Assembly (NCBI RefSeq): GCF_000203815.1
Contig: NW_004457735.1
Location: 2,108,001-2,172,000, forward strand
Source: Cavenderia fasciculata
Taxonomy: Eukaryota; Evosea; Eumycetozoa; Acytosteliales; Cavenderiaceae
Direction: 5' to 3'
Length of the DNA: 64,000 bases
Below the pieces are notes generated by a model. It made no database searches and was not told where the DNA came from. It saw only the letters and a list, made by a program, of their open reading frames with translations. Positions 4,194 through 56,318 of the stretch are shown here, in pieces; position 1 is the stretch's first letter; every line of letters begins with the position of its first letter. The position numbers and the translations under genes were made by a program.

Positions 4194-6291
4194 ATGAATA
4201 CACTATTTCACTATTATTTATAATCATTGCTATATGTGTAGTACCATCATATCAACAATTTGCAACTCACACTTGGTCAGGCAACGCTGGTGACAACAAT
4301 TTTATGAATGGTGCTAATTGGATTCCTATAACAGCAGCACCGAATGCAAACTTTAACATTATCATCGGTTTTGGTACGTCAATCTATCTTGACGGTAATG
4401 TACAAGTCAACTCGCTCACAATCTCACAGGCCTCTAGTAATACACCTGTAAACTTTGAAATCCGTGGAGGTTCAAAACTGACGACACAACAGGTCAATGT
4501 CATAGCTGGAACTCTCACTGTCAACGGAGCAACAGTTGTTTCAAACGACTTTTATGCCAGCAGCACTGGAAATACTGTTCTCCTTGGACAAGCTTCTCTT
4601 GTAATCCCCAATATTTGGGCCAACGGCACCTCTGTTGTAACGACAGCCGGACAAGCTAGCATCAATACCACCTTGGCCACTTTTTCACAGAGTGCAACCT
4701 TTAATGCTTCCTCGTCTACCCAATTCAACGGTGATTTAAAGATGACTCAAACCAGTCTGTTCAAGGTTGTAGGTCCAGGTGCAACATTTACTGCTCCATC
4801 ACTCGTTACCTATGACTCTGCAGTGGTGACCACTCAGGAATCTGCCATTTTGTTAAACAAATTCGATGCCTACTCTACCCAAACCTCTGTATTCAACCAA
4901 TCCATTGTTACTATCGATGGAGACATGTCAGTAAGCTCCCAGTCATCACTCACATTCCAAAGCCAATCCATCTTTACCATCATGAATGCAGATGCATTGA
5001 CAACTTCCATTTCAGGTCCAGTCAAATTCCTCCAATCCCGATTCGATATTGCCAACACATCTTATGTCCCAGTATTGGCTGCAAACATTACCGGTGTTGC
5101 CTCTGAAATCAATATCTGGGGTACCATTAAAATTGCAACCAATGTTAGATTCGATTGCGCAAGTTGCAACATTACAACCAATGATGAAGGATATATCAGA
5201 TTTGAAATGAATTCACGTACCAATTGGACAAACACTCAATTTATTAATAATGCTAAAGTTTTCGTTGCTGCCAAGGTAATTATAAAATATTTATCTATAT
5301 CTTTGAAAATATTAACTTTATTTATTTATTTATTTATTTATTTTTAGATGCTAATGCCATTTGGAAATAATATTTTAAATACAGGATATCTTGATTATTG
5401 TGCCGATATTTTTATTGATTCTGTCAATAATACCGTCGCTGATACCAACACTTCACACATTATTACCAATACAGGACAATGGATTTGTTACACACCAATG
5501 CACAATATCATGAGTGCTCCATTCCTCAATCAAGGTGAAATCAAGATGACACGTGGAAATGTGACATTTAACAAGTTGAGACAAGAATCTGGAAGTATCG
5601 GTCTACTCAACGGTATGCTCTTTTCAAACAATACTATTGAAATCTTGGATGGTCTTTTGTATGGATCAGGTAGAATTTATGGTAATGTCAGCAACTCTGG
5701 TCAAATCTTTAATATCACAGATATCAATAATCCAGTTTCATCTATTATTCTTACTGGTTCATTGAATCATACTGGTTCAATTGGTATTATTATTACCAAT
5801 ACTACAAACTTTTCATCTTGTATGTAAATTAATTTAATTACAAAGGTATATTTATTTATTTATAAATAATTAATTTAAATGTAGTAAATATTACACAAAA
5901 TTTAATTGTATCAAATGGAACATTAACAATCAAGATTAATCAAGATGTTGCAAATGGAACTGAAATTAATTTGATGCAATACAGTCAAATGGAGGGAAGC
6001 TTTTCAAAGATTAATATTGTTACCTATGACCCAGCAACTGGACAAGAAAAAGAAGCAGACGAATGTAAATATACTACTAAGGATAATGGTCCATCCTTTT
6101 CTTTGCTTATTGGCAATGACGAATGTTCAGATATAGGTGATGACAAAAAAGTTCCAAAAGCATTGATTATCGGTTTGGTTGTTGGTATTGTAGGTGCTGC
6201 CTTATTGGTTGCCCTACTAGTTGCCAATCGTACTAGAATTAGATTATTTTCAAAGAAAACCTATAATATTCGTATGGGTTCTAAAAAATAA
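4194..6291 (+). CDS. Secreted, probably type I membrane, beta-rich surface protein; apparent frameshift at the signal peptide
   Basis: Exons 4194-5275, 5348-5819 and 5885-6291. The mature part starts around FATHTWSGNAGDNN and is a long run of short beta-prone, Asn/Ser/Thr-rich strands with many N-glycosylation sequons, suggestive of a beta-solenoid or adhesin-like ectodomain. A single hydrophobic helix (IIGLVVGIVGAALLVALLV) near the C terminus is followed by a short basic tail ending GSKK. The ATG at 4194 opens MNTLF, but its frame stops after nine codons; the frame of the mature protein encodes a clear hydrophobic signal core with no ATG of its own (nearest upstream ATG 3986, with an implausible N terminus). 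With one more T in the run near 4206-4208 the signal peptide would be continuous, and the spliced length is one base short of a multiple of three. I do not recognise the family. A surface role is inferred. Confidence 0.72.
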
Positions 6292-8102: not shown

Positions 8103-9304
8103 CTATTGAATCTCTTTTAATTCTATAGACGGGTTTCTGTTTTCGGTCATCGATGGTGAATTATTACTATTATTATTACTATTCTTATTCTTTCCATTGC
8201 TACCATTGCTACCACCACTACTACCAACTCCAACAACATTATTATTATTACTGTTGTTACCAAAAGATAAAGCAGATGATATGGATGAAGAGATGATGGC
8301 TTTTGATTTTTCCCATGGAGAAAGATTGTAGGCATAGAGAATACCAAGTGCAGGTATAATCTCTGTTATTACCAATCCGACAAATGAAAAGGTAATGTCT
8401 GACAACTCGGTGGCCACCAATATGAGAACAAAGAAACAATGCAAGACAAACCCTATCGAAGAGGTAATCGTAACGACATAGATCTTGCGTTGTGTGTCGC
8501 TTACAGCATCCGAGGAATTCTTGTTTCCCTTGGTTTGGTGGTCCCTAAACACTTTCATCATGTTAAAAATGTTGATACCGAGATAAAAGAATGCACCACC
8601 AATAATGAGCGAGATCACTGCCTGAAAGACTGCATAGACAATGGATACAATCTTTTGAGGTGGTGTTGTTTGGAGAGTGTGGAGATACCGTCCACCACAA
8701 TTGTTGGTGGGTACTTCTGCCACTGTGAAATGGAATACCAAGACAATGATGATGAATAGGATGTAGAGCACTACATTGACGCTACCAATCATGAGTGATA
8801 TACGCCTACGGAAATTAGATCTTCTCGTATTACCATTAATGATAATATACCAGAGTACAATGATAATGGTAAATGATGAAAAGTAGATAAAAGTAGGCAA
8901 CACGACGAGAATATAGTCTGCAACGGCCGAGTTTTGGAGGGTACCAGATGGTAACACGAAAAAGTAGACCGCCCGAATAATGATAAACGTTGTGACAGTC
9001 AAGACCAACAAATGAACGAGCTTGAATGATTTGGCGAGTACCAGTCGATCACGCAACGCTCCAATACCAAGCTGGAATACTCCCCACACTCCACACAACA
9101 AGAAAAGCACGGCCAATGCGTAGACCAGTTTTGTGGCATTCTTGTCAAATGGTTTGTAGGTTTCACTCTTGTAATTATCCACACGCACAATGGCAAAGTA
9201 AGTGTCATGAGCACTAACATTTTCAAATCTTGCACAAATCATCTTTACTCCATTTCTTTGTGTATCAGATATAATTTGGGTAATCATTTCTAATGGAACC
9301 AATA

Positions 9305-9359
<55 letters not shown>

Positions 9360-12300
9360 GTCTTTAATGAATGCAAAATCGTATATGGGATACATATCTA
9401 AATCTACAAACCCATCTTCTTCTTCATCTTGTTCACTAATATCATCAAGACAGACTATAAATGATTGAGCACCATTTGAATTGATTTTGATACCATCTGA
9501 TATGATTGTACCGACAACAGCTCCATTTTGATTATAAATGGCAAATTCTGGTGGTTTGGTATATGATACAAAGTTGGAGGAGAGTGTTTGAACGGTTGTA
9601 GATTTGTATAGTTGATGACTGACCATACTGACGAGTACACTTGCACAAAAGTAGGGAACTGACTCTATTGTGAAATTAATTCGACCATAACTAAATTCAA
9701 ATGCAGATTCTTCCAATGCGCATGGGTTGCTCTCACCTAGCAACAATGAAGAAGATGAAAAACAAGAATCACCTCTCTTTTCATTACTGCAACTACATGC
9801 TATTGATTCGAGGTTGTCTTGAATACGTTCGACTCTGCACAATGACGATGATCTAAGTGCTTCGGATATACCAAATTGATGAGAGATGAGTATTTTGGAG
9901 GCAAAGTTTTCAAAAGAGAGGACTGGACGCATGGCAGAGGGTGTTATAAATTGTGGTGATGATTTCCAACCAGTGACCGAGACATACTTTCCCGGGATCC
10001 AATGGGCATTGGTCCATTTAAATTTGTTGGTCCATTGGTTGAGAGTCGATTTACATGAATCACATTGTTGACGTGTCATTTGATTGAATCGATAATTCAA
10101 TCCTATAAAGGTTATATATTCAGTGACGATTTTACATCCCATCTGTGATGTACATTGTTGTGCCGATTGAGATGGTGTCCACCATTGATAGACAACCGAA
10201 CCATTTGATAATTGTTCGCATTGTTGTCGTGTTGTTATGTTGGGTGTAGATAGGTAACACCCATTTGGTGAATCATTTTCAGTTAAAATATCACATGATG
10301 GAAGATATGATAACGGATTGAGAGCACGTTGATTACGAACACACTTTCCTCTATAGTCTAGGTAGTTTTTGTTTCCAGTTTGACTTTGTTGAAAGAAATA
10401 ATTGTCTGAACATTCACCTCCATTGTTTAGACAATCTTGTTTGTTGGCACAAGGTATTTCTTGAATGGTACATATGTTGTTGATGGATGGGTTGGTGCCA
10501 TACGGACTGTAACATTCCGATATGTCATATTGTTGACATGTCACCCATACATCTGTGCAAGTTGATTGATTTGCATTCAATTGAACTTGACAATATCCAA
10601 TCTCTTGGTTCCAAACTTGACCAATAGTACTTGTACAAATAGATTCCAGAGTGATTGTTGGGTTGATACAAATACCATCACCAAGATGTGTAACACATTT
10701 CATACCACATGACTGATCACATATTCCCAAAAGATTTTCACAATCTTGTTGTGACACACCATATCTATACTCTCCATTGGCCAATATACAGATAAACTGA
10801 TCGATAGTACAATTACTTTGATCCAATTCCTTGATGTTGTAACATTCCTGTTGGTCTTGACAATACGAACAGAATCCTCCAAATGCTTGGCAATCTACTT
10901 GTGAGAGTGGACCTTGCACCGTGCAGTACTGTCCATTTAGAGTACAGTTGGAGTGATAGTCAAATTTACTATAACGATATGAATTTTGTGCTTGGAATCG
11001 ATAGTCCATTGCTACATCGTGAATCGTTAGACACGCTTGATCATAGCAATCTGGCATTGGATAGGATTTATCGAAAATGATCTTTGATTCACCTTGAAGA
11101 TTGACACCATGCAACAAATGGAAATGGCGAAAAGACAAACCATTATCAGATACCAAATCGAGTGCACAATCATTTAATTTGAAAAGGTCGTAGAGGGGAT
11201 TGATAAATTCAATCGACAATGGGTCTTGACCTGGCAAATCGAATTCAACCTTTAGGAAATACGATGAAGTGACTGGTGATTGATCCAATACACATGCAAT
11301 ATAATCCATATCTTGATATTCTATTGGTAATTCACAATGTCTTGAGAATTGATTGCAATTACCAATAGCTGTTGTTATATTATTGTTGTCAAGACGTAGA
11401 TACTTTAGCAAGCAATCTGAATCCTCTGAACAAACAGTTGGAGAAGAGTAAATTTCTTGTTTACAGTTGGCAAGAGCATTTGAAATATTGAATTTAAATT
11501 GTTTGATTTCATGGTATGGTAGTTGACATGCGCCATTGTCTACATCTTGAATGGATTGAAAGTAATCAGAGAGAATGGATTGTGTGCACTGTGGCGAGTG
11601 ACACTGATCTGATACCTTGTCACTGTTTGCATTTGTAAATATGGTACGAGTATGTTCGACTGGATGTGGCTCACAACATTGGAAAAATAACAGAGCAGCA
11701 TTGCAACAAGGGTCTAGAAGAACCCTTGGATCAGACTCGTTGTAGGGATAGCTCACCACCTGAACAGAAACCTTTTGATTGGTGGTTTCTGCCATCTGGT
11801 AGGCTTGGTTTGAACAACCTGTCCAACCATCACGAAATGTCAACACATCAATCTGGTATCGTAACGAAGCAACCTCTATAAAATCTTTGGTTTGATACAT
11901 TTGTTGTTGTGTTGTGTCTATGAGATTGGTAACCGCGAGGAATTCTGTATAGTCACATGTTGGTGTCTTAATATCAAACTTGTATGTACCTGTTAAAGGG
12001 GTTCCACTAGCATCGACCAATACATTGGTAAACTCTAATATAGCGTTGCTTGCAATCGTATCAAAACTATAGTATTCATAGGTATGTTGCCACGACGATG
12101 AAAGTGCAATGTTGATTTGATAGGCTGCCGATTTAAATGGATTGTTTGTTTCATTGAGATTGATGACTCCATAGAACCCGTAATTAGACATTTCATCGAC
12201 GAAAAAGTTGGGGATGGGCCAGACAGGGTTACTGTATTGTCGGGGATAGTTCATAAAGAACATACTAGAGCTTGACCAGGTTGCAGACTCGAGTGGATAG

Positions 12301-13541
12301 GTACTACTACTGAGAAAGATACGACTTGTCCCTTGTATTTCGTATGTACCAGCAAGAGGGTTGGTCGATGAGAAGTTGAATAACGCGAGGTTGGTATGGT
12401 GACGTGTGACGGTACAGAGAAAGCCTGATGATTCATAGGCATTGATCTCAATGTACAAAGAGGTTGGTTGGTTAAATGTGGCGACAATATAATCGTCGCT
12501 CGATTGATACCCTTTCCACTTGTAACTTGTTGGTGGGTATACATCTGACATGTAGATATCCATGTCACCATCGATTGCTGGACATGCTACTGTCACAGTT
12601 TGTGGTTGGTCTACAACATAACTATAAAATGAACTTGTACCAGCCGACAAATATCCAAACAAAGAATCACCAGAATTGGTGCATTGATATCCACTTGTAA
12701 TATTTGTACATGCTGGTGGTTGGATAGAAGAGGGTTCAGGTACTTGTCCAGAATAAATGATTATATTGAATTGAATAAACTTGGAAACAGGTTCAATGGT
12801 GATAAAGTATGTATTGTTGGTCCAGCTTGTAGTACTGACAAATGGAGGTATATTATCGGTTGGACATATATTGATTCTTGTATTAAACCGTACTCCTTCT
12901 GTCACGATTCTACGTGGTACTGCAGTTGGGTCGATTCGAGAATACACTCTGTACTCTCCCATCTCTGGCATTGCATAGATTAGTATACCCTGACAAATCA
13001 ATGCATCTGCCTTTAATCTTAGCTCCAAACTACCATCATTCAAATCTCTTGAAAATGTGTACCATTGATTAGTTTGAATCTCTTCCCAAGTATTTGTTGT
13101 TGATGACGGTGGACAATAGAGATATTGTGTAGTAGTATTTGTTTCAATGTCAAACGTTGAATAGGTGGATGGACAAACAACACCAGGACAATTAGTTGCA
13201 CCACCAACAGGTTGACCACAACCAATCTTTGATGCATAGTCACATGTACAATCGACAGTTGCAATGGGACAAGTAAAATTAGGACATGCCACTGAATGAT
13301 AGGTGTAAAGATCCTGGTCAAATTCAAAGTCACCTACTGCAAATTCAAAATCTACTCCAATAACATTGGTTTTCTTGTAAATGATATCTTTTTTTAATAT
13401 ATTTATAGATATTGTTATTAAAACTAAACAAGATAAAATCTAAAGAAAGAGATATAAAAAAAGATTAATAAAAGGGTTCTTATTCTTTAGGATAGATGTA
13501 AATGTACATACAAATAATATAGATTTATAATTTGAAATCAT
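8103..13541 (-). CDS. Giant secreted-ectodomain 7TM receptor-like protein (1788 aa)
   Basis: Two exons: 13541-13512 (10 codons) and 13439-8103. Together they begin MISNYKSILF followed by ILSCLVLITISIN, a signal peptide missed if the ATG at 13292 is used; the frame is open across the join. The roughly 1400-residue ectodomain is Cys-rich, with many C-x(5-12)-C spacings. Near its start is a stretch like a bacterial pre-peptidase C-terminal (PPC) beta-sandwich, with the DGDMDIYMS core. Seven hydrophobic segments follow at 9160-8310, beginning LVYALAVLFLLCGVWGVFQL and ending near IIPALGILYAYNLSPW, like THH1/TOM1/TOM3-type or GPCR-like 7TM regions. A poly-Asn run is encoded by the ATT repeat at 9306-9359, and the cytosolic tail is Ser/Asn/Gly-rich. 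A sensory or adhesion receptor role is inferred only. Confidence 0.85.
9306..9359 (-). repeat. ATT/AAT trinucleotide run encoding poly-Asn
   Basis: In-frame trinucleotide repeat of about 18 units within the 7TM protein, just before its membrane part. Such homopolymers are common in dictyostelid proteins and length-variable. Confidence 0.95.
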
Positions 13542-18803: not shown

Positions 18804-18881
18804 AAAACAAAAATAGAATAAAACAAAACAAAATAAAATAAAAGATTAATCTTAAAACAAAATTAAATTAAACCACAGTCA

Positions 18882-18936
18882 ATTCTTCATGGTCAATGCA
18901 ACGGCAGCCTCCATCGAAACGACATTGACGGCTGTG
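18882..18936 (-). pseudogene. 55-nt relic copy of the mucin-like GPI protein gene
   Basis: This segment matches 21973-22027 at 49 of 55 positions without gaps. Read on the minus strand it keeps the same frame (TAVNV, then SMEAAVA, then TMKN) and then meets a TGA where the intact gene reads on. The six differences are all transitions; three are silent in frame. It sits between the convergent aminopeptidase and acyltransferase genes, about 3 kb from its source. Confidence 0.75.
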
Positions 18937-21612: not shown

Positions 21613-22362
21613 CTATAGAGAATAGAACAATGAAACAACAAGGAGAACTAGATTGAGGAAGACAAATGGATTGGTGGCTCTTGCATCACCAGTGGTAGAA
21701 GTGGTGGTGGTGCTAGTGGTTTGGGAGGTTGTCGATGCAGCAGTGGTAGAGCTGTTGGTACCCTTATGTCCGGTAGTGCTACCAGTGGTTGTGGTGGTAG
21801 TAGCAGCAGCGGTAGTTGGACGTGAAGTGGTGGTGGCACCATTGGTGAATGGACTAGCAGTAGTAGAGGTTTGGACGTTGGTAGTCGATGGAGTAGCTGG
21901 AACAAAGACAAGTGGTCCAGAGAAGGTCTTGGTAGAATCACGAGCACTCAATGTGAAATGATCGGTCGAGCCATTCTTCATGGTCGATGCAACAGCGGCT
22001 TCCATCGAGGCGACATTGACGGCTGTGCTTGGAACTTGGAAGACTCTGAAGTTGGGGAGAGCTGGTGTCTCAAATCCAACAATACCACCAAAAGTCAAAG
22101 GAAAGCCTGTCTTTGGAGTGGCAGAGCCTTGGCCTGGAACAAAGTCAACGATCACAGTGATATCATTTTCAATACCAGAAGTCAAGGTCATTCTAATGTC
22201 AGACGAGATGGAATAAGAGCCAGCAGTGCTACCCTTGGCAATAATAATTCTACCACCGTCACCATTGTTATTGAAACCACCTTGATAGGTGTATTGGCCA
22301 ACACAATTGCCAATAATAGCAACCAATAATGTAAAGATAATGGTAAACGATGATTGATTCAT
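21613..22362 (-). CDS. Secreted mucin-like, probably GPI-anchored protein (249 aa)
   Basis: Single exon. N-terminal signal peptide (MNQSSFTIIFTLLVAIIGNC), then a folded domain of about 130 residues with little Cys (GGRIIIAKG, VIVDFVPGQG, TFGGIVGFETP), then a Thr/Ser-rich stalk of about 75 residues typical of O-glycosylated mucin regions, and a C-terminal hydrophobic stretch (FVFLNLVLLVVSLFYSL) right at the end, as in GPI-attachment signals. The likely anchor site is among the small residues before NPFVF. I do not recognise the folded domain. A 55-nt relic of this gene lies at 18882-18936, so the locus or a paralogue has been duplicated and lost. A cell-surface role is inferred from layout only. 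Confidence 0.85.
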   Translation of the reverse strand: MNQSSFTIIFTLLVAIIGNCVGQYTYQGGFNNNGDGGRIIIAKGSTAGSYSISSDIRMTLTSGIENDITVIVDFVPGQGSATPKTGFPLTFGGIVGFETPALPNFRVFQVPSTAVNVASMEAAVASTMKNGSTDHFTLSARDSTKTFSGPLVFVPATPSTTNVQTSTTASPFTNGATTTSRPTTAAATTTTTTGSTTGHKGTNSSTTAASTTSQTTSTTTTSTTGDARATNPFVFLNLVLLVVSLFYSL

Positions 22363-22810
22363 TGTATTGGTATAGATATAATTATCAATTAAATTATTAA
22401 ATTATTTAGTATAGGTAGGTAGATAGATAATTAATTATTGTTATTTGTTATTTGTTTGTTTGATGATATTATTCTTACCTTTTTACCTCTTATTTATAGT
22501 TGTTTGTTGGGACGATAAATTATATTAAAGTATTAATTACCCAGGTATGATATCATATGATGGATGACATGCTAATAATACTGTCACTACTTTAATTATT
22601 CACCAATCAACTATGATGGGTGTTCATTCACACCTCTCTCTCTCCCTCAACCCACTTGCAAGATAGATTATTGTCAAAAAAGTAGAAAAAGACAAAACTA
22701 AAAAAGTATTATGTGGGTTGTCCCTAGAAAAGAAAAGTACTTGGAGAAAAAAAAATAAAAAATACAATCAAACAACTAATAATAATAATCATAATAATAA
22801 TAATAATATA
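22363..22810. other. Intergenic, about 450 nt, between divergent genes
   Basis: AT-rich shared upstream region of the mucin-like gene (minus) and the Uma2-like gene (plus), ending in an ATA/ATC microsatellite at 22780-22810. No gene seen. Confidence 0.6.
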
Positions 22811-23771
22811 ATGAGAGAATGGGAATCTAAAATTACTCTTCTAAAAGAGGTATGTTACTTTATAGTATTCTAGGAATGTAGTTTAAGGTAAAACTAATAA
22901 TACACTTTTGTTTGTTAATAATATTATAGATTCATTTAAATTCAAATAGAAGAGATGATGATGAAAGTGATAGGGTGGAAATTGAACCACCATACATCAT
23001 TGCAAAAGGTGTAACGATGAAGAAGTTTTTAGAGAGACGAGAGAGGGATTTACTTGGACATCTAAAGAACACTAAACTAGCATTTGTCAATGGTGATGTA
23101 TTAGTTTATGAATTGGAAAACTCTGAAGCTAGGGCAATACTAACTGGTTGGTTTTCAGGATGGATAACTAAAAGTCACGTAGACCCATTTATCCAAATCA
23201 CTGGAAGTACTGATATAATTATTTCACCCAATATTGTAAGACAACCAGACAACTCTTTTAGACCTAGAGGAGGAAAAGAAGGTCCCTTTCCAAGGTCCAG
23301 CACAATGGTAGTCGAAGTTGGTTATTTACAATCACTACAATCACTTCAAGATAAAGCCATCCAATATCTCGGTGTAGCTACAGAAATTCAAATTGTTTTA
23401 TGTATATCACTTTGGCCAAGAAAAGAAGAAAAAGAGATCGCCAACTTAACAACAATAACACCTATCAAATGGTAGCACTCCTCTATGATAGATCACATTC
23501 TGTCAATCACCCACAAACTGTTATTTCTTTTGGTACCTCTCCTCTTAATTACACCAATCAAAATATTATTAATAGTTGGTACAACCCTCCAACAACAACA
23601 CCAACACCATCACCATCACCATCACAATCAACAAATGACAATACATGTATACTTGAAATCCCAACATCATCTTTATTCCATGGAGTAGTTCATCAACTAG
23701 AAGGTATTCCAGTCACCATCCCATTAAATCTGTTGCAACTTAGAAGTGAATTGAATGATATTCAATTTTAA
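22811..23771 (+). CDS. Uma2/PD-(D/E)XK restriction-endonuclease-like protein, frame broken once
   Basis: Exons 22811-22849 (starting MREWESKITLLKE) and 22930-23771. The first frame carries a Uma2-like nuclease fold: FVNGDVLVYE, TDIIISPNIV, then MVVEVGY, then a conserved K in QDKAIQYLG. The D...E-x-G...K spacing matches the PD-(D/E)XK superfamily, common in bacteria and scattered in amoebae and fungi. The first frame stops at 23473-23475 (…TPIKW), while the -1 frame continues with VALLYDRSHSV and a C-terminal part ending LNDIQF at 23771. The spliced length is one base short of a multiple of three, so one lost base near the A/G-rich stretch 23416-23440 is the simplest reading. It could be an assembly error, a pseudogene or true frameshifting. 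Nuclease activity is not shown by sequence alone. Confidence 0.7.
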
Positions 23772-24028: not shown

Positions 24029-25649
24029 ATGATAAATAATGAAGTTTTAGTGTCTACCATCAAGACTGCACCAAAGGTAGTGTTGGAAATGTTGACAAAG
24101 TTGTCGTTTAGTCAAAAGGTATTAATGGGTGCTACTACTGCCACTTTTGTCAGTGTTGGAGGTATGTAAAAGTAGTAGTAAAAGTTATTATTTAGTAGTT
24201 AGTAGTTAGTAGTACAGTTATTTATTATTTAAACACTCTTTACTTGTATATATATATTTAAATATTTTAGTTGCATCTGAAATATTAAGTCCACTTGGTA
24301 GAAAGATTGAAAGTGTAGATGATTATAAACAAATTTTAGATGAGACCAACTATAGATTGTCCAATCTTCAATCATCTGAAGAGTTGAATGACCTCGACTT
24401 TGAAACATTGGAAGATTTGTCCAATACAATGGCAAACAGCAAGTACTTTACACTTGCCATGGAAGACAAGATCGACACCATCTGTTCGATCCTTCTCAGA
24501 TTCTTGTTGGTCGTATTTCAAATTACCCAACAAGTCGAAGCTGCCACTCAAGAAGAAGCACAACAAATCCATTACGATTACTTAAACTCTATCACTGAAC
24601 ATCCATTTATATTAAGTATTCGTAGTATGATTGATTCTATCATTAAATTTTGTATGTACCAAAAAATATTTAAAACACATGTCATATGATAATAGTCTCC
24701 TAACTTTCTTTTCTTTTCTTTCTTTTTTTACTTTTTAGCATCAAGAGATACATTATTTAGTGAAATTATAGATTATGTTGGTAATATTTCATTACTTCAT
24801 ATCCGATTCATCTATATCGATATGATTGCAAAGGGTGTCGTTATAAAAGGAGCTAAAAACTTGGTCGATCCACTCAGAGTATTAGAATTCTTGTCGGTGA
24901 CTGGTTCGCTTGGCACCCATTTCCTCGGATTCGATCATATCAGACACGCCGTTAATATGGTGGCCAACGTTGTCTATGACATGGGACACATTGTCAAATC
25001 CAACGGTGACTTGGTACAAATCCCAGAAGAGGTAATGGAAGCAACCAAGCAAATGTCAGGCATGAGATATCGCAAGTACATTCCATCAAGACTATACAGA
25101 AACAAAGAGTCGGTCGTCACTGATATACTCGTTTCATCACTCGTCCTCTGTACCGGTGCTGCACCTCTAAAGTCGGTTTTAATCTCTAGCTTTTTGTTGA
25201 CTAGCAAGAATTCCGTCTGCGAAGACACCTATGAAAAGTTAAATAATCCAGTTGGCAGAGTATTCTTTATGGCCTTTTTACCCGCCGCTCTCATGTGTTC
25301 ACTTGTTGTAACCACCAAGAGCATCAAGAGTGCGTTGGCAGCTGCCTCTATTGCTGTTTCTGTCTTTGGTGTCGAATGGTTGGCCTATAAATACGGTCCA
25401 AAGAAATTCTTTTCACTGTGTATGATGGATCTTTACTCTTATGATCTTGCTCGTATATCAAGAGCTTCTCAAATGGATGCTGAACAACAAGCTCAAGATG
25501 ATGAAGTTGAACAAGATGAAGTCGCTCAAGTTAGCAGAGAAAAGGGTCAAGCCAAGATTGTTGAAATTATTCAAGAAGAAGATGAACAAGAAAATGAACA
25601 AGAACAACAAGTTGAACAAGATAGAGAACAAGTTGAACAAAAGGAATAA
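24029..25649 (+). CDS. Tandem-array gene A: unassigned multi-helix membrane protein (474 aa)
   Basis: Exons 24029-24161, 24271-24651 and 24739-25649, both introns phase 1. Exon 1 encodes a short N-terminal helix ending in a hydrophobic turn (QKVLMGATTATFVSVG). Exon 2 is helical with a hydrophobic ILLRFLLVVF. Exon 3 has an amphipathic region with IAKGVVIKGAKNLVDP, the block GMRYRKYIPSRLY at about residue 279, then three hydrophobic segments (TDILVSSLVLCTGAAP, RVFFMAFLPAALMCSLVV, ALAAASIAVSVFGV) and a Glu/Gln-rich acidic tail of about 50 residues. It is most like gene B (shared VDPL, RYRKY and VGRVF blocks). First of seven head-to-tail paralogues. No known family recognised; membrane location is inferred from hydrophobicity. 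Confidence 0.85.
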
Positions 25650-25923
25650 ATTAAATAAATAAATAAATAAATAAATTAATAAAGAACAAATAATTAAATA
25701 GAATACGTAAAAACAAAAATGTTGACGAGCTTAGCACCTGACGACTTTGAATCATAAGTCAATGATGAGAGATAAGATATTTTATCTCCAGCTACAACTT
25801 GCAATGAAATATATATATATATATATATACACACATACACTTAACTTTTCTTTCTTTTATTCTCTTGTTGTTTGGTTCATCTTAAACTTAAACTTAAAAA
25901 AAAGAGATAAATAGTCTAAAGGA

Positions 25924-27323
25924 ATGATAAAAAGAGATACTATTTCAAGTATGATGAATGGTGCACCAAAGGTTGTAATTGATATCTTTGACAAGATGTC
26001 AATGACTCAAAAGATTGCAATGGGTGTATTTGCAACTCATTTTGCTTGTTATGGATGTATGTATATATATAAACTTTGATAGATAGATTCATTAAACCAT
26101 TAAACATTCATTTTTCTATTTACTTTTTTAGTACCATCAGAAATTGTAGATCCAGTCAAATCAAAGATTAATCGTGTTGAGTATTATGTTAGATTCTTGG
26201 ATGAAACGTTAAAAAGAGTTACTACTCTTGATGGATTCGATGAGTTGGATAATATAGACTTTGGTACATGGGAGAATTTGGCATTGTCAATGGCCAACAA
26301 TAAAACCCTCGCCATTGCACTAGAGAACAAGATCAATCTCATTACTCAAATCCTATTCAATTTCTTGGTACTAATGTGTGAATATTCAAAGTATATGGCT
26401 ACCATCCAAGATGCTGCAGATGCACGTCAAGCATATTTCCATACTCTCTTAAAACATCCATTCATTCGTAATGCTCGTATCATGATTGATTCAATTATTA
26501 CATTTTGTAAGTAAAAGAATTAATTATTATTATTATTATTATTTTAAACCCAAACTATTATTAATTATATATTTTAATTGTATTAATTTATTTATGTTTA
26601 GCTGAAAAAGATGTAGAATCATTAATATCAAGAGGAGTGAATAGAATTGTATTTGATCATGTTCGATATGTATTTGTTGATATGGTTGCAAAAGGAGTTT
26701 GTAGAAAGGGTGCTGATAATTTAGTTGATCCACTTCAAGTATTGGAATTATTGACTGTTCCTATCTCTACCACTCCCGTGCCGTTGATTGGATGTAATTA
26801 TACTAAACGTGCAATCAATTTAATTGTAAACAGATTACATGACCAAGCCAATGACGGCAAACAAATCAATGTACCACAGGATATATTGGATTCTACCAAA
26901 CCATTGACAGGCAAGAGATATCGTAAATACCTTCCAAGTATTTTATATACACAAAGATTAGAATTGATGACTGAAGTAATTCGTTCATCTCTTACAATCT
27001 ATTTTTGGCAAGCTACCATACCATCAACTATATTGGCCAATCTTGCTCTATCTGATTCATTCAACATTGTAGATTACCTCTTCAAGAGAACAGATAGTAT
27101 GGTTGGAAGAGTATTTATTCATAATGTAGTTCCATCAATTACAGCTTGTGCATTGATTGGTTCTTCCAAGAGTCTCAAAGCCACCATGGCAATCATCTGG
27201 GTACCAATCCTATCATGGGGTGTTAAATCATTGGTTGAATATTCAGTCTCAAGATCATATGCCAAATCTCTCGCTGATCTATATGATATTGACAGACAAA
27301 GAATGCCTCCCCAATCACAATAA
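25924..27323 (+). CDS. Tandem-array gene B: unassigned multi-helix membrane protein (409 aa)
   Basis: Exons 25924-26056, 26132-26506 and 26602-27323, both introns phase 1. The exon 1 length (133 nt) is identical to that of gene A, and APKVV near the N terminus matches it. Shared blocks in order: QKIAMGVFATHFACYG, exon 2 DETLKRVTTLDG and ITQILFNFLVLM, exon 3 DMVAKGVCRKGADNLVDPLQVLELL, GKRYRKYLPSILY, VGRVFIHNVVPSITACALI and the SKSLKA motif. It lacks the acidic tail of A and ends PPQSQ. Intergenic distance to A is 274 nt. A recent duplicate of A by structure and sequence. Function unknown. Confidence 0.85.
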
Positions 27324-27670
27324 AATTTATCAAAGTTAAATTTTAATTACAAATCAAAGGAAAGGGTGGAATCAAATGTGAATAAATTAGGGTATCAATG
27401 GAACTATAAAGGGACTATCACTAATTATAATCAATGATGTATCTTGGGTTTACAATGTTGATTGGTAAGTATTCTTTAAATTTCCCAAGATGATGATATT
27501 TAAAAAGATATTTAATTAAAAAATTAATTTACTTGTTGTTCCAAAAAAAATCTTGTTTTAAAGATGTGTGGTTAAATACCCTGTACACGATCATTGCAAT
27601 CTTACACAACATGTATAATAATAGTAATATATATATTTAAGGTATAGTTTGTTCGTTATAATCATCAATC
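27324..27670. other. Intergenic, about 350 nt, between array genes B and C
   Basis: AT-rich. An 8-nt inverted repeat (ATCTTGGG at 27441-27448, CCCAAGAT at 27484-27491) is the only structure seen. Confidence 0.5.
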
Positions 27671-29117
27671 ATGACTGAACAAATTAAAAAGATAGTTCAA
27701 GTATTAGGAAATGTATCTGGAGAGTTCATAGCAAATCTTACAACAACTGACAAGGTTGTGATGGGAACTACAGCTATTGGATTAACAACAATGATGTGTA
27801 TGTAATATCTCTCTCTATTTAAATAGAGATATAACTTGTACTTGTGTGTACTAATATATAATACGTTTAGACATAAAACATTATATCAATCAATCATTTG
27901 AAGTTAATAGATCAAAGGTACCAGAATATAAAGAGACTATTGCTATAGCACTCAACTTGGTACGTCAAGCTAAAACAATCAATGAATACGAATGTGTAGA
28001 CACTTATGGATTAAAAGTAATTGCACATGCAATGTCGGTCAACAAGTCGGTGACACTTGCCATGACAGATGAGTTTGTCAATATTGCCGGTATTCTAGTC
28101 AACTCTATGCTCTTTTCATATGACTCTTGTCATTTGGCAACTACAACTAGACCTGATCTCGTAGACAATATCATAACAAGCTATTCTCAACTTCCAAGAT
28201 TAGATCCTATCGTTATCACTACTTCATCAATGATTCGTTCCCTTTTACGTCATGGTATGTAACTAACTAATAATAATTAATATTTATTCATAAATATTAT
28301 GAATATACAAGTATAACTAAACTTTTATTTACTTTACTTTACTATATATATATATATAGCACCACAATCAAATGAATTTGCAATGGTTTTAACATCATAT
28401 GCAGGAGGATGTCAATTATTACAAGTTAAATTTATAGTGGCAGAGTTGTTGGCAGATTATGTGGCCGAGTCTAATGACCCAAATATAAATAATCTACCAG
28501 TACTCATATTTTTATTGTCAGTGTATAGTCCACAGTTTGATGTAGTCTATAATCACATGGATCATGCAATCAACAAATTGACCAACAATTTCTTAAAGAA
28601 TCCTCCTCCCAACGTAGACATTACCGATGTGAAAAAATTGGTCGAACCATACGCTGGTTACACCTATCGTAGATACTGTCCAAACAGTATACTTAAATAC
28701 AGAGAGTTTATAGCTATTGTCCTTAATGGTTCCGCAATCGCTATTGGTAAACATTATGTTTCACCAGCACTTCAATTGTTAGTATCTGCATTTTGGTTAC
28801 TCAATGGTACAACTCTGGCAAGTCAATTTGAAAACAAAATTGATTCTTCTATTTGGGCAAGAATAATATTAAAAAGTCTTTATTTGACTCTACCAATTTG
28901 TATCATCTATCCTCAATTCAGTTTCAAGTCCATATTAGTCGCTTCGATCCCTTCAATCATTGGTAAATTATTTGATGTATTTGCCAAGAATTATATCATC
29001 AAAAAGATGGATACTGCATTATTTATACGTTGTAGAAAGGATATTCAAGATTTTGATATTTATTCTAAAAAAGAAAAAGATGCTTTAGAAAGAAGAAATT
29101 TAAAACAACAACAATAG
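27671..29117 (+). CDS. Tandem-array gene C: unassigned multi-helix membrane protein (422 aa)
   Basis: Exons 27671-27797, 27871-28254 and 28360-29117, both introns phase 1 at the positions used by all array members. Exon 1 ends TTDKVVMGTTAIGLTTMM, the family's first hydrophobic segment after a conserved Lys. Exon 3 contains GYTYRRYCPNSILKYREF, the variant of the family RYRKYIP block, followed by hydrophobic segments (FIAIVLNGSAIAIG, LYLTLPICIIYP) and a Lys-rich end (KKEKDALERRNLKQQQ). It is more divergent from A and B than they are from each other. No catalytic motif seen; function unknown. Confidence 0.83.
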
Positions 29118-29468
29118 TTGGTTAGTAAATAAATATATTAATATATTTTCAAACCACAACCTGGGAGGAGATCTGATACATAAATATATATTTATGTCGC
29201 GTGATCTGATACATAAATATTGTACAGTGAGTGACTAATATATATGCTGCATTGCATATGCAAACATATTCATAGAAATTTTGTAGTAAAAATATCAGAG
29301 TTGGACGTTATGAAAATTTTTTAAGAATGATTGCAATCAGTCGTCATATGCCACGCAGCGCTTTACGTCATGTGATCCCCTGCTGTAGTCATTTAACAAG
29401 ATATCTATATATATACAAACAGCAACACACACATTCAAAGATAAGATATCTGTTTGAAACAATCAATC
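29118..29468. promoter_or_regulatory. Upstream region of array gene D with direct repeat, palindrome and CRE-like site
   Basis: An 18-nt direct repeat (29170-29187 and 29203-29220) frames a perfect 20-nt palindrome (29178-29197). A TTACGTCA element at 29363-29370 matches a CRE/bZIP-type site. These are the only distinctive upstream motifs in the array. A regulatory role is inferred from position. Confidence 0.4.
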
Positions 29469-31122
29469 ATGTCAACAAATGTATTCAATTCATTGGTAGC
29501 ATTCAACAAACTATCGATTAAAGATATCTCAAAGAATGTATCGTATTCACTCTTGAATACAGTTAAACATCTTTCGTCAAAGGAAAAGATTATTATTGCA
29601 TCTGCATCTACTGCATGGTTGGGTTTTGCTTGTAAGTAAAACAAACTTTATATATATATATATATATATTTATTATCTTGCTTGTTATGTGTGAAAGGGT
29701 AAACTAATCAACACCTCTCACTCTCTTTCTTTCTCTTTTTCTCTCACTCTAGACTATACAGAAACAACGTCTACAATTACAGATCAATCAGTGGATCAAT
29801 TTATAGAAATACTTGAACGTATGATGGATCTTGCCTATTCGATTGAGGGTATCAATGAACTGTACGATATGGACTATTCATTGATGGAAAATATTGCAGC
29901 TTGGTTGGAATACAATGACGCTGCAATGACTAAATTAGAACCTCAATTGGGACGTATCCTTGTTATTCTCGCTCGTTTTCTACACAACATGATTTTTGTA
30001 TTGATTAATTCTGAAGAAGGTGGCAATCCTCTTCCTGTCCTAGCCGATCGTTTCGATGGTTTTCGTTCTCATCCCATCGCTGAAAATCTAACTCAAATTT
30101 GGAGAACTATGTTATTAAAATGTATGACCGAAATATATATATATATATATATATACATTTAATTGTACAAATAGTAACTAATATATGATCATTTATTTCC
30201 CCTTCTTATTTTAATTACTCTACTCAAACGTTTGTTTGTAGCACCAAAAAAAAAAGTCATCTATTTTAATTTTCTTAATGTACTCGAAGATAATTTAGAG
30301 AATGAAAGTACTAGATTCATAGTACTTTCACTCTTGTCAGAGTCATCACATGGTGTACCATTGGAAACATTTCCAACCAAGAATATTCTATCCTTTTATC
30401 ATCAATTGAAACCCCTTTATAATGGAGGTTGGACCTACGACTCTATCGATCAAACACTCAACCGTCTGGCCAATATTTTAGTGTCGAGATATGATGACGG
30501 TGATATTGAAGAGCCACTCGAGAAAATAGAGTCTTTTGCAGGATACCGTTACCGTCGTTATATTCCTCATTGGATTCTTTCAACCAAGGAAACAATACTT
30601 CTCACTGCACTGGGATCGTCCCTTGCCGTTGGCTCTAAAGTGGTGTCTATTCCAATGCAACTTAACTCGTTGTCCATTTTGGCTGATGGAGAAACCCTAA
30701 TGGGGTTCCTGGGTTTATTTGAATATGTGACAGCTCTCGTGCCACACATATCTATCTATATCATGGGTAGAAACAACTATAAAGCAATAGGAGTTGCTCT
30801 TGCTGCCATCTATGTTCCATTGATGTTTAAACATTTCTATATCAAGAAAATAGAGAAGTCTCGCCAAACCGACATTTACAAACAAAAGACAATCGTTGAT
30901 TTGCGTCATCATATGTCTGCTGTAGAATTCAGAGAACAACAACAACCACAAGTTCAACAAATACAAGAACAAGATGAAGAAATTGAAGCACAACAAGAAG
31001 TTCAAGTACAAGAAGTGGAACAAGAAGAAGTTCAAGAAACTCAAGTCCAAAATGCCAAGGAGATAGGAGGAGGAGAAATCGAAAACCCAACAACAAGTCA
31101 AATAGGTGTCAACCAAGAATGA
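29469..31122 (+). CDS. Tandem-array gene D: unassigned multi-helix membrane protein (470 aa)
   Basis: Exons 29469-29631, 29753-30121 and 30242-31122, both introns phase 1. Exon 1 is the longest of the family (163 nt) and ends SKEKIIIASASTAWLGFA. Exon 2 carries ILERMMDLAYSI and the hydrophobic LGRILVILARFLHNMIFVLI. Exon 3 has GYRYRRYIPHWILSTKETI, then LLTALGSSLAVGSKVV and YVTALVPHISIYIMGRNNYKAIGVALAAI. The tail (about 70 residues) is a Gln/Glu-rich, probably coiled region. The -RNNYKA- block links it to E (RNNWKH) and F (KKNWKC), while RYRRYIP links it to A-C, so D bridges the two halves of the array. Confidence 0.83.
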
Positions 31123-31411
31123 TGTCACAAATAAATATTAATTAATTAAAATAATAGATATAATAATTAGAAAATGGTCGTCTGACCTCAAAGTTTAGAT
31201 AGTTTCTTCCTTTTTACTTGGGTTTGTTTTAGATATTTATTTTAAAATTCCTAAAGGAAGGTGTTTTCCACATAAATCTATGCAAATTTAAAGCCAAAGA
31301 TACAATATCTGTGATGTAAGGACCAAGTCATATTCAACAGTTCATTCATTCAAATTCATTTAGTTTTGTTTATTTAATACTTATCAATAGATAGATATAT
31401 ATACAAGAAAG

Positions 31412-32990
31412 ATGATAAACATTAAAGAGACAGCTTTAGGAGTAGTTAAAGAACTATCATCAAACTTTAACTTTAACTTTAAATTAACCAATACTGACAA
31501 GATTGTTGTTGGTTCATTATCAGCTGTATGGGGTGTTTTAGCAGGTATGTGTTGTGTTATATATATAATGATTATTATTATTGTTCTTTATATTTGTATC
31601 TAATCATCATCTTGATCACTTTTGTATCCACTTCTTTATATAATATATATATATAGCATATAAAATAAAATGTACAAACAAACCAACACAAGAACTTGCA
31701 CAAAAGTATAGTAATCAATTACAAGAGATGATGGAAATTATGACTAAAAGCAATGGTGGATTTGCAGCATTCTTGGATGATCCACAGGGTAGATTATCTC
31801 GTATGCTTTTCCAGATTTCCACTGACATGAAAGCAAGCAGGACACTCACTAGAATGATGTCTTCACAAATTGAAACAGTCGTCATGATTTACCAAGTATT
31901 CCTACTCCAATGCTTTCAATCATACGAACATTTAATTAAAACTCATCCAAAAGATGCAGTCTTACTACGAGATGAATATATCTCTATTCTAGTTGGTCTT
32001 ATCCCTGCCAATCTACTTTCCATGTTACATTCTTTTCTTATATATTGTATGTATACATATACATATGCATATACATATACATATACATATATCGCCGGCG
32101 ATATGGGAAATAATGTAATAATAATAATAATAATAATAATCATATTAACGATTTTGTTTTGTGTTAACATTTTAGGGGATGATAATCATGTACTTTTAAC
32201 AAGAACTGCATTATACGTTAGATCATTGCAACTCAGACATAGTAAGATGCAATTGATACATTTCCTAGCCAGTTATATTGTAGAGTTACCAAGATCAAAG
32301 CAACCAATGTCTCAAGAACTCATGCTTGCATTGTTTGATATTTTATTGGCTGTTCAAAAAGAGCAAGGTGAATTGAGTATCTTTGACACGGTCAACCAAA
32401 TCGACGAAGCTCTCAGTGTCTTGGCCAACAAGTTGTTGGCGAGTTTGACACCGACCGACGAATTGAGAGACCAGATTATCAACCTTGTCACTCCACATCG
32501 TGGCCTTTTCCAAACGTATCTCCCTCGAGCCATCTATCAAAACAAGGAGAGTAGTGTATTCTCACTGATTGGTTCAGGTCTTGCAGTTTACAATTTCGGG
32601 TGGTTTGCAGCTCCATTGTACACCCAATTGACTGAAATCCTATTATACAACGGGTTGGTCAACACTGATGAATATATATCGTCTATTGACAACAAGGCCG
32701 CTTTGTTCTTGGCTAATCTCAATCCAGCCATATTAATGTCTGCCACCTATCTATTGGCCCGAAATAACTGGAAACATTTCCTAGTCTGGAATGGATTAGT
32801 GGCTGCCGGATTAACCATTCAATACAAACTATTAGTATCCAACTTTACAACGTTGGTCACTATCTATCGAGGTTGTGTTGAAGATGATTCACAACATCAA
32901 AATGCAATGATTAAACAATATCTCGAAGAACATGGTGAAGATCAACAACCAACAACAACAAACCCCATTTCACCTGAATTATCACAATAA
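31412..32990 (+). CDS. Tandem-array gene E: unassigned multi-helix membrane protein (445 aa)
   Basis: Exons 31412-31544, 31657-32046 and 32176-32990, both introns phase 1. The second intron (32047-32175, 129 nt) has no stop in frame and a length divisible by three, so it looks coding, but paralogy and the GTATGT...TTTTAG ends mark it as an intron; it holds a TATACA-type repeat and an ATA run. Conserved segments: DKIVVGSLSAVWGVLA, exon 3 YLPRAIYQNKESSVFSLIGSGLAVY, ALFLANLNPAILMSATYLLARNNWKHFL. The usual RYRKY block is reduced to FQTYLP. Short tail ending SPELSQ. Function unknown. Confidence 0.83.
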
Positions 32991-33180
32991 ACTAATAAAT
33001 AATCATACTAAAAATATATTTGTGTTTCTCGATCAGCGACTGCCAGGGTCGATTCATTTGAAAAAGATACAAGTAAGATCTTTTCTAATAGTTAGAAAAA
33101 AACATGGTGACGAAAATAATCATCATCGGTCATTAATTCGAATGCATTGTTGTTCTTGAATGAATTGATTTGAAAGGATA

Positions 33181-33203
33181 TAGATAGATAGATAGATAGA
33201 TAT
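33181..33203 (+). repeat. GATA microsatellite before array gene F
   Basis: Tandem TAGA/GATA units directly upstream of the ATG at 33219. Similar tracts occur elsewhere in the window (14151-14170, 43907-43930). Confidence 0.8.
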
Positions 33204-33218
33204 ATGTATATGTAAATA

Positions 33219-34726
33219 ATGGATCTAAAACATCAACAAGAATACTTGCATAGAGCTATTAAATCATTACCAAAGTTTGTTGGTGATCAATTCAATCAAT
33301 TATCGACAACTCACAAGTTGATCATTGGTTCTGCAGCATTGGGATGGTCATTTTATTCAGCATGTAAGGAAATGAAATGAAGAGAAAGAAAGAAAGAAAG
33401 AAAGAAAGATAATATTGACTATATGATCTTACTCTATCTTTTTCAATCTTTAGCTAAATTAGTTGAAACAGAAGGGTTTGAAGGACCTTTAGATGATGTA
33501 GTATCAGAGTTTATAGAAACATTAAAAAAATTAGACAAAGAAACAAGAGATGATTTCGATCTAAGTAAAATGTTAAACCCCAATCAATACAGTGAACAAA
33601 TTCCTTGGATGGCCGGTATGATGAAGAGAGATAAACGTCTATGTCAAGCAATGAATGATCAGTTTGATATGATCTGTACATTATTCATCCTACTTCAAGG
33701 TCGTATCTACGAAGTCTACCAATTCGCTATCAATGGTGAACCATTGGAAGCTGAAAATATCGAATATTCCTATACCAATCTTGGATTAAGTTCTCCAATA
33801 CTTCAAGGTTTATTTTTAATTTTAGAATCTCTTCTTGAATTTGGTATTTATCAACTTATGAATATATATATATCATTGCTAAATATTAATATTAATTTAT
33901 GTCTCTTTTCTATTTTCTATTTTCTATTTTTTTAGATGAAACAAATTTTTGTAAATTTGCAGAAAGAGGATCAAATATTGGAGTATATCATATGGCCTAT
34001 ACATTTGCAGATTTAATAGCAAAGATGTTAATACTTTGGCCAAACCGTACATACAATTTGGAATGTATGCTTAATATATTTGCTATTTTGGTATCGATTA
34101 AAGTCAATTCAGCTAGTACCGATATCATTGATTTGGTTCTGTTAAAAGTATCAAATCAACTGGTCGGTCTATTGGAATTTGATCCAGAATATAAATCATT
34201 GATGAATCATATCAAACCATTTTCTGGGTTCCACATCACTAAAATCATTCCCATCCCATTTTACCTACAAAAGACAAGAAAGGTATTTGGTGCTCTGTCT
34301 GCATCGCTGTTGTGTTACTATGGATGGTTGACACCTGCATACTATATTGTAAATGAAACATTCTTGTATACTATACTTTCGAGTATATTCCCTAGTAGAA
34401 AAGTCAGTCACAAGAATAGATTCCTCAAATTCTTGACCGACTTGACTCCAATCATTCCATTTATTCCATTGTACATAATGACCAAAAAGAATTGGAAATG
34501 TTTGGTTGCTTCAATTGGCATATTTGTAGGTGGAACGATTATAAATATTATCGAAAGTAAATCAAGTCTCTACAAGGTATTTGTCTGTGTTGACAAACTA
34601 AGAAGAAAAGATTCTACAACCTTCCAAACAGTCATCAAACAAAAAATAGATGAATATAACAAAAAAATGGCATCTCCAGATCTTGACAATATTGAAGAAA
34701 CAGGAGGAGTAGAGGAGAAGAAGTAG
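33219..34726 (+). CDS. Tandem-array gene F: unassigned multi-helix membrane protein (441 aa)
   Basis: Exons 33219-33363, 33454-33843 and 33936-34726, both introns phase 1; the second donor is GTATTT. Exon 1 ends HKLIIGSAALGWSFYSA. Exon 2 has an extended acidic helix (VVSEFIETLKKLDKETRDD) before the usual helical region. Exon 3 keeps FADLIAKM (compare DMVAKG in A and B), the position of the RYRKY block as ITKIIPIPFYLQKTRKV, and FLTDLTPIIPFIPLYIMTKKNWKCLVASIGIF. Tail short and acidic. Clearly a family member by gene structure and the C-terminal block, but diverged. Function unknown. Confidence 0.82.
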
Positions 34727-34948
34727 TAGTAGCTTAATAAACAAACCAAAATATTAATTAATTTATTTATTTAAAAATATCTATCTTTCTCAAAAATATC
34801 TTATTTATTATTTTGTTTTTTTTTTGGGTCATAGTTCGTCATCATTATGAATTAAATCGTATGATCGTTATTATTATTATGTATTTACATCATCAACGTC
34901 TATGATCTCTGTTTATAATCAGGCTTTGTTGATTGATAATCTAGAGAT

Positions 34949-36612
34949 ATGAATAGTATTAAAGAATCGATTATTAAAAGAGCACTTGTAGATCTACCTC
35001 TTTTAGCATCAAATAGTGTAGATCACTTTAATCAACTTGGTTTAATACCAAGAGTTGCAATAGGTGCTGTTATATGTCGTTGGGGTGTATCTGGATGTAT
35101 GTATCATCAATGATCATCATAATCAAATATTGTTATTCTTTCTCTTTATTTACAACTTTTCATTTATTATTATTTATTAGTCTCTGAAGCATACAAATTC
35201 AATAAAATAACAAATGAAAGAGTCATTCAATATAAAGAATGGTTGGCAGCAATCTATGAAGATGATTTTGGAAAAGATCAAACCAATGCTGGATTGAAAA
35301 TGACAGAGATTGCAAGAGAAATGAAAAAGAGTGAGGAATTGACCATTAGAATGCTCGATCAACTACCATTAGTCATAATGATTGCATGCAAGTTTGTTTT
35401 CGAAATATTTGGAAAATACCAAGATACAGCAATTGCACTAAAAGAAGATCAAAGAATGGCAGTCCATTCAGCTTATTTAAAGCAAAGATCCAATCCCCTA
35501 TTTTATAAATGTTTTGTAATATTGGGTACCTTTTTAGCAATTGGTAAGAATCAAATGATTGATCTATAGAGTCGAGTCACTACTGTTACTAACCAAAAAC
35601 AAATAATAATAATGATTGATTGAATGAATATTATATTATATTATTTTATATTATATTTATTTATTTAGGAGATAAAAAATTAAGGATGATAGCATTGGGA
35701 GAAGCAATTGATTTGGCTTATGGTACGTCTGGTTTACATCTTAGATTCTCCCTTCTCTATGAGATTTGTAAAAGTATTGGGGATCATTCAATTGACGATA
35801 TTCCAATGGACAGATATTTAAAGTTGGCTTCACTCTTGTCAACATCGACTGTACCCCAAAAGGATACAATTAGAATGATGAGCAATGCAATTGATTTTGC
35901 CAAAGCTCAATTACTCATTGCCATTACCAAGAATCTATCTTCCATAAAATTCCTATTCGAAAAGGAAAAAGAAGAGTTGTTAATGTTATATGTTGCTAGT
36001 CACCGACAAAATGCCAATCCATTTTTTGGATACCCATTGGTTAAATGGCTACCAGAATTCATTGTTTATAAAAAAGAGTATTACCTTGTCAAGGGTGCAC
36101 TTTTATCTATTGGTCTTTGTACTGGTTTCACCAGCATTGGTATTCAAGCTGGTGTTGACGCGTTCTACAGATCTCTTAAACTCGATTCACGTCAGGCCAA
36201 AAAGACAGAGAGTAGACTTGCAAGATCTCTTTTAGCTTTTGCTCCTGCCATTCCATTTGGTGGTCTCTGTCTCTTTGCATCGACAACAAACAATTGGAAG
36301 GCTGTTGGATTATCATTTATGATATCGTTGGCAGCCAATATCGTACAAGAATTGGTCATCAGCGAACTAGCAAAGAGAAGGTACGATGAATACGTCGTTC
36401 TCTATTGTGCAGATGTTAAAAATTATCCAGAAAGAAAGAAAAAACAACAAGAAATTGAAAAGGAAGAAGCAATTAAATTAAATCAGCAAACTGTTCCTGC
36501 GTCACAAGATGAACAAGAACAAGCTGTAGAACAACGATCTAATAAGGAAAAGGATGGTGAGAAAAAAGAAGAGGAAAAAGAAAAACAAATTAGATCAACA
36601 ACAACCATCTGA
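34949..36612 (+). CDS. Tandem-array gene G: unassigned multi-helix membrane protein (484 aa), tail possibly frame-slipped
   Basis: Exons 34949-35096, 35181-35543 and 35669-36612, both introns phase 1. Exon 1 ends PRVAIGAVICRWGVSG. Exon 3 has GYPLVKWLPEFIVYKKEYYLVKGALL in place of the RYRKYIP block, and RSLLAFAPAIPFGGLCLF then NNWKAVGLSFMIS, matching E and F. The charged tail stops at 36610-36612. In the +1 frame a further 30 or so Gln/Glu/Asn codons (QQPSENRQEVQEEL...) run to a TAA at 36698-36700 and look like a natural continuation of such a tail, so the stop may come from an extra A in a nearby A run. Last gene of the array; the next gene is on the other strand and unrelated. Confidence 0.82.
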
Positions 36613-36791
36613 AAATAGACAAGAAGTTCAAGAAGAATTAAACAACATTGGACAAGAAGAAAAAGAAGAAGAAGGAATTAACAACCAACAACAACAATAA
36701 GTAATCTAATTTATTTCAAATTGTACAATTAATTATTTTATAAAGTTGCCCAAACAAATCTACTCCTAACACTATCTATCACCATCATTTA

Positions 36792-56111: not shown

Positions 56112-56318
56112 CATAATAATAATAATAATTATAATCTAACTATCTAAAGAATCGAAAAAGAATTAGTAATACTCATTCATCTATCCAATCCTTTTAAAAT
56201 TATTAAATAATTTATAGAACTTATCGTAGAAAGAATTGTAAAATAATAGAATTAGAATAGGAATAATAATAATAAGAATAATTAAATAATTAAATAATAG
56301 TAGTAGTGGAAATTGACA
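54830..56318. other. Intergenic, about 1.5 kb, between divergent genes
   Basis: Holds a (CAAA)n tract near 55020, an AT run at 55428-55450, a CAA tract near 55951-55974 and AAT runs at 56077-56108. The part 55240-55340 is less AT-rich. No ORF with coding character; probably promoter and untranslated sequence. Confidence 0.6.

Follow-up and report, generated by a model that had tools for sequence, protein, structure and literature searches.

What does a run of seven similar genes encode, and does it reflect rapid evolution? The question is raised by a 64,000-nucleotide stretch of the Cavenderia fasciculata genome (the window; part of contig C3, in a genome of 31.0 Mb and 21 contigs), in which the seven genes lie end to end on the plus strand at positions 24029-36612. 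A preliminary description, made from the sequence, had taken them for a family of membrane proteins that fits no known family, had rested their common descent on gene structure and had seen in the tandem expansion a hint of fast-evolving biology such as self-recognition or defence. We find that the array belongs to a family of ten loci whose common descent can be recognised from the proteins themselves, and that it has the look of an old family, with purifying selection of average strength, and not of a recent burst.

Seven genes related by descent

Gene models were built from reading frame and the GT..AG consensus, and the structures came out as the preliminary description had claimed: seven plus-strand genes (g1 to g7; Table 1), every one with three exons and two phase-1 introns, with first exons of 127-163 nucleotides (in order of length 127, 133, 133, 133, 145, 148 and 163) and products of 409-484 residues. 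The 14 introns, of 73-129 nucleotides, are all GT..AG and have a G+C content of 0.11-0.27 against 0.31-0.40 in the exons, and spacers of 222-351 nucleotides separate each stop from the next ATG, the last stop ending at 36612. A repeat scan of the array returned 14 families, consisting of tails, simple repeats, the exon-1 likeness of g1 and g2 and some short two-copy matches. The search for remnants outside the modelled exons of the window gave two rows with expect values (E) of 0.66 and 0.82, which we judged to represent none.

Using BLASTP, the best pair was g1-g2 (34% identity, E about 1e-88), the six adjacent pairs were 21-34% identical over the aligned stretch, and for some array pairs, such as g2-g5 and g3-g7, there was no convincing match. 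Each of ten family members was then scored, among 1,000 block-shuffled sequences, with a profile trained without that member and its close kin. Targets scored 67-158 bits, against 12-32 bits for the top-scoring shuffle of each test, so the case for homology goes beyond shared gene structure. We regard the common descent of the array genes and the dispersed loci described below as confirmed by sequence comparison alone. Six alignment columns are invariant among the seven array proteins, including G279, P287, K368 and D407 of g1. The only firm groups in the tree are g1+g2, g4+g9, g6+g10 and g8 with g6+g10; the deeper forks are weakly supported or open, and the sequence in which the genes were duplicated can therefore not be read from the tree.

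Dispersed copies and selection

Searches of the C. fasciculata genome with six array proteins (g1, g3, g4, g5, g6 and g7), the C21 protein and a family consensus identified three further loci, on contigs C4, C2 and C21, bringing the family to ten. On C4, g9 is an intact copy of g4 that encodes 448 residues in three exons separated by phase-1 introns; it is preceded by a broken-frame 3' piece of g3, and the locus is most simply explained by the g3-g4 stretch having been copied as one unit. On C2, g10 is g6-like and 5'-truncated, starting inside exon 1 with exons 2 and 3 open. On C21, g8 is intact and g6-like, with 426 residues, and has lost intron 1 exactly while keeping intron 2. The consensus query, with E up to 10, gave at least 23 matches, all within the ten loci; the query was itself derived from those ten proteins, and match counts are lower bounds, so that further diverged copies are possible.

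Two pairs could be used to estimate nonsynonymous (dN) and synonymous (dS) divergence, each comparing an array gene with a dispersed copy; within-array pairs are not well measurable, and the other four pairs computed have dS values of 1.25-1.66, near saturation. For g4/g9 we obtained dN 0.26, dS 0.74 and dN/dS 0.36 (bootstrap 0.27-0.46), and for g6/g10 dN 0.37, dS 0.76 and dN/dS 0.49 (bootstrap 0.37-0.68), pairwise averages that are compatible with a few positively selected sites. When the genes were divided into parts, the helical domain was the most constrained part of g4/g9 (dN/dS 0.24), with least constraint on the tail (0.57). In g6/g10 it was the helical domain that was least constrained (0.56, compared with 0.50 for the membrane part and 0.27 for the tail, on 32 codons), and the order seen in g4/g9 is therefore not general.

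Searches of known families

No known family was found to fit in Pfam, NCBIfam, PADLOC or the PDB sequences, in agreement with the preliminary description. With E up to 10, the seven array proteins matched nine Pfam families, each family in one member, the best being UPF0242 (E 0.00093). We attribute these weak rows (UPF0242, BioY, Per1, VanZ, PDDEXK_12 and others) to chance or tail composition; BioY appeared again at E 0.0014 in a search with C-terminal halves. The family consensus matched nothing in Pfam better than E 0.13 (whole) or 0.015 (C-terminal part). NCBIfam gave four families, each in one of seven members at E 0.074 or worse, a sequence profile search of the PDB gave one row (E 0.59), and PADLOC gave two PycTM models, each in one of seven members (E 0.0068 and 0.035), which we judged to be chance.

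Among viral contigs, seven matched a pattern from g4 exon 3 and none proved a relative by tblastn, in a search that reaches close relatives only; likewise, 16 pattern matches to g1 exon 3 among GTDB genomes included no relative by tblastn, again with a reach of close relatives only; neither collection includes amoeba genomes. No publication tied to this family was found in the parts of the literature that were accessible, searched without a gene identifier.

Protein layout

Column-averaged hydropathy peaks at 0.99 for the exon-1 segment and then at 1.45, 1.22, 1.56 and 1.52, with two further peaks near 0.8. The stretch before H1 is net basic in nine of the ten members, the helical domain net acidic in nine of ten, and the H2-H3 loop carries a net charge of +1 to +3, with a lysine, in all ten. 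An RYRKYIP-like block, previously ascribed to all seven array proteins, is clear in g1-g4 and in the copy g9; in g5-g7 it is weak. The proteins are predicted to be helical: a structure model of exon 3 is all-helical, with a predicted local distance difference test (pLDDT) score of 70-81 in six of the eight ten-residue blocks of residues 21-100. Fold comparison of this low-confidence model gave no clear match, and PEX3, PEX16 and TMEM135 were absent among the 50 matches listed, which excludes nothing.

Peroxisome-linked leads

Three leads, TMEM135, PEX3 and PEX16, were chosen by eye and then tested. TMEM135 has a hydrophobic pair with a basic loop, as does the family, and the C-terminal pairs look alike by eye. 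The hhalign probability was 0.4%, however, PF15982 was not listed for the seven members, and its only match in the genome was a separate TMEM135-like gene on C2; we rejected this lead. In PEX3 an all-helical domain follows an N-terminal hydrophobic anchor, a layout that the family resembles, and the helices of PEX3 and the KIIPI of g6 are alike by eye. This lead was set aside as not established, since the alignment is not colinear and its hhalign score of 21.3 (probability 0.8%) falls within the decoy range, the two highest of 60 shuffled decoys scoring 23.0 and 20.1; PF04882 was not listed for the seven members and, at E up to 10 with 29 candidates scored, matched in the genome only its own PEX3 on C17.

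PEX16 was retained, as a weak candidate only. In six hhalign runs the family P...KK(N/S)WK block fell in the same register on RPL...KKSWKPW of PEX16, with hydrophobic stretches beside the block in both, and the probability was below 2% in all six. When the PEX16 of this genome was the only one used, 7 of 80 decoys scored better for the C-terminal half and at least 8 of 80 for the whole; with two PEX16 sequences, column-shuffled decoys were as good in 1/60 and 0/60 cases, and with three in 2/150 and 2/150. Adding the third sequence lowered the score, and the reversed profile then scored 16.3 and 17.7, against 18.9 and 21.2 for the true one. PF08610 was listed for none of the seven members, none of nine C-terminal halves (that of g2 excluded) and not for the C-terminal part of the consensus; in the genome it matched only the PEX16 gene on C5, and as positive controls the PEX16 protein of this genome and two further PEX16 sequences matched it at E 6e-51, 8e-108 and 2e-94. 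The blocks compared lie, by eye, about 100 residues closer together in the family than in PEX16, and the family has an extra N-terminal helical part. Because this was one of three families tried, with motifs chosen by eye, we do not count the PEX16 likeness as a finding. Since the genome has its own PEX16, PEX3 and TMEM135-like gene, the array is not their replacement. PEX3, PEX16 and PEX19 are the peroxins to which the sorting of peroxisomal membrane proteins is attributed (PMC8172628), and TMEM135 is a member of the Tim17 family (PMC5072337).

Coordinates and neighbouring sequences

Table 1. Members of the family; positions of g1-g7 are those of the window, positions of g8 and g10 those of the extracted locus named
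Gene	Location	Positions	Strand	Exons	Residues	Remarks
g1	window	24029..25649	+	24029-24161, 24271-24651, 24739-25649	474	Q/E-rich long tail
g2	window	25924..27323	+	25924-26056, 26132-26506, 26602-27323	409	sister of g1, 34% identity
g3	window	27671..29117	+	27671-27797, 27871-28254, 28360-29117	422	degraded 3' piece on C4
g4	window	29469..31122	+	29469-29631, 29753-30121, 30242-31122	470	intact copy g9 on C4
g5	window	31412..32990	+	31412-31544, 31657-32046, 32176-32990	445	
g6	window	33219..34726	+	33219-33363, 33454-33843, 33936-34726	441	relatives g10 (C2, truncated) and g8 (C21, intact)
g7	window	34949..36612	+	34949-35096, 35181-35543, 35669-36612	484	longest tree branch
g8	L050, G000:C21:2754001-2764000	4248-5593			426	
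g9	L048, G000:C4:443001-453000				448	
g10	L049, G000:C2:692001-702000	about 4197-5520				

Beyond the stop of g7 a coding-like, Q/E-rich frame continues in another register (36558-36700), as if the g7 tail had been cut by an indel in an A/G-rich tract, real or of the assembly. The degraded g3 piece on C4 (L048, 3969-4260 and near 4390) retains 91% protein identity over 58 residues; it is joined to a gene that looks ankyrin-type by eye, after which come about 20 G in a row. The break in exon 1 of g10 adjoins an antisense gene, small-GTPase-like by eye, and exons 2 and 3 are open across 369 codons despite a dS of 0.76; g10 is perhaps still used from another start. Intron loss through reverse transcripts is usually biased to the 3' end, and g8, which lost only its 5' intron, shows the opposite.

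Elsewhere in the window, positions 18880-18936 and 21971-22027 share about 57 bases with a few differences, so that a piece of the minus-strand frame 21616-22401 also lies beside an acyltransferase gene. Upstream of the array, the frame 22930-23472 resembles a Uma2-type PD-(D/E)XK protein by eye and has no Pfam family at E 0.001. A single open frame at 58125-61448 combines an SH3 domain (E 8e-12) with a glutaminase domain (E 2e-19), a pair that is to our knowledge unusual, and 56307-57059 pairs CS with SH3. On the minus strand, 8106-13439 is an open frame of 1,778 codons, the last part of which weakly resembles THH1/TOM1-3 (E 5.6e-5, below the cut-off).

Discussion

Our tentative explanation, to which we give a probability of about 0.4, is that the family consists of membrane-anchored helical adaptors kept as diverged paralogues; we infer the membrane insertion, the identity of the membrane and the adaptor role. 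Each protein would comprise an N-terminal stretch and a short hydrophobic segment led by lysine or arginine, then a putative helical domain of about 220 residues, mostly acidic, after which G-x-x-Y-R-K-Y-x-P would lie in a region that is mostly basic. The chain would continue with two or three hydrophobic segments, the last two forming a tight hairpin with a lysine in the loop, and end in a variable C-terminal tail that is Q/E-rich in several members. Anchored adaptors of this kind would bring a partner to their membrane, which may be that of the endomembrane system, peroxisome or mitochondrion (which of these is a guess), and they would not be secreted receptors; different paralogues probably have different partners or are expressed at different points of development. 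In favour of this explanation are the profile scores obtained with close kin left out, the gene models, the dN/dS values with bootstrap ranges below 1, the charge pattern and the all-helical model of exon 3. Several observations weigh against such proteins. The hydrophobic segments are short and marginal, and a number of them may be amphipathic helices of a soluble protein; in g8 no 19-mer exceeds 1.4 in hydropathy. With column-averaged peaks of up to 1.56, we consider the place in a membrane given in the preliminary description likely rather than demonstrated. The overall confidence of the structure model is only 59.6, for exon 3 alone, and the opposite ranks of the helical domain in the two measurable pairs (0.24 in g4/g9 versus 0.56 in g6/g10) mean that it is not clearly the working core.

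Alternatively, the expansion may be an ordinary one, neutral or a matter of dosage, whose copies decay and have no particular role; the degraded g3 piece and the truncated g6-like copy would fit. We consider it unlikely, as the seven array genes, g8 and g9 have kept intact frames after deep divergence and selection is purifying where it can be measured. The same ratios bear on the idea that diversifying selection acts on a family for self-recognition, adhesion or defence, which the tandem array, strong divergence and variable tails might suggest, as might the positive-selection signals reported in PMC8535579 for more than half of the stage-biased genes of dictyostelid expansions. Self-recognition of the Tgr type would call for diversifying selection and high polymorphism; pairwise dN/dS is below 1 in the two pairs measured, no Pfam surface or immunity domain was listed, and PADLOC offered nothing beyond its two single-member PycTM models. 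We hold this explanation to be improbable. The dN/dS values of 0.36 and 0.49 and the identity of 21-34% between adjacent genes speak against the fast-evolving part of the earlier interpretation, which is partly supported overall. We put no greater weight on a small transporter or channel, in which the hydrophobic segments would form a pore regulated by the helical part.

A relationship to peroxins, in which PEX16 would be the source of the last part of exon 3, fused to a different helical domain, and the family would help to place peroxisomal membrane proteins, has in its favour the constant register of the alignment, the scarcity of equally good decoys with two or three PEX16 sequences and, by eye, YIP..IY...E and DLR..D blocks ordered as in PEX16. 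Given the low hhalign probabilities, the better-scoring decoys with the genome's own PEX16, the falling score, the reversed profile and the missing PF08610 matches, we think it very unlikely. Its fuller form is more remote still: that a PEX16-derived C-terminal part and a new helical domain, at ten loci, would make these proteins factors of the dictyostelid lineage for handling peroxisomal or endoplasmic reticulum membrane proteins beside normal PEX3 and PEX16.

Family expansion is common among dictyostelids. In PMC8535579, C. fasciculata is credited with 78 expansion families comprising 1,077 genes, and expansion genes are described as narrower in expression and enriched among stage-biased genes. 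Such expansion is the ordinary background for this array, which is likewise multi-copy in one genome, with ten homologous loci; whereas low divergence between nearest paralogues is described there, adjacent genes here are far apart in sequence. The family does not by itself point to self-recognition. To judge from the comparisons made here, it is a real, conserved multi-gene family without an assigned domain in the libraries tried, and would therefore represent an annotation gap rather than an artefact. Should relatives exist in other dictyostelids, a dedicated family model would be deserved. A family restricted to this lineage would instead be one more old expansion under purifying selection, and a useful case in which to ask what makes a social amoeba retain so many diverged copies of one probable membrane protein.

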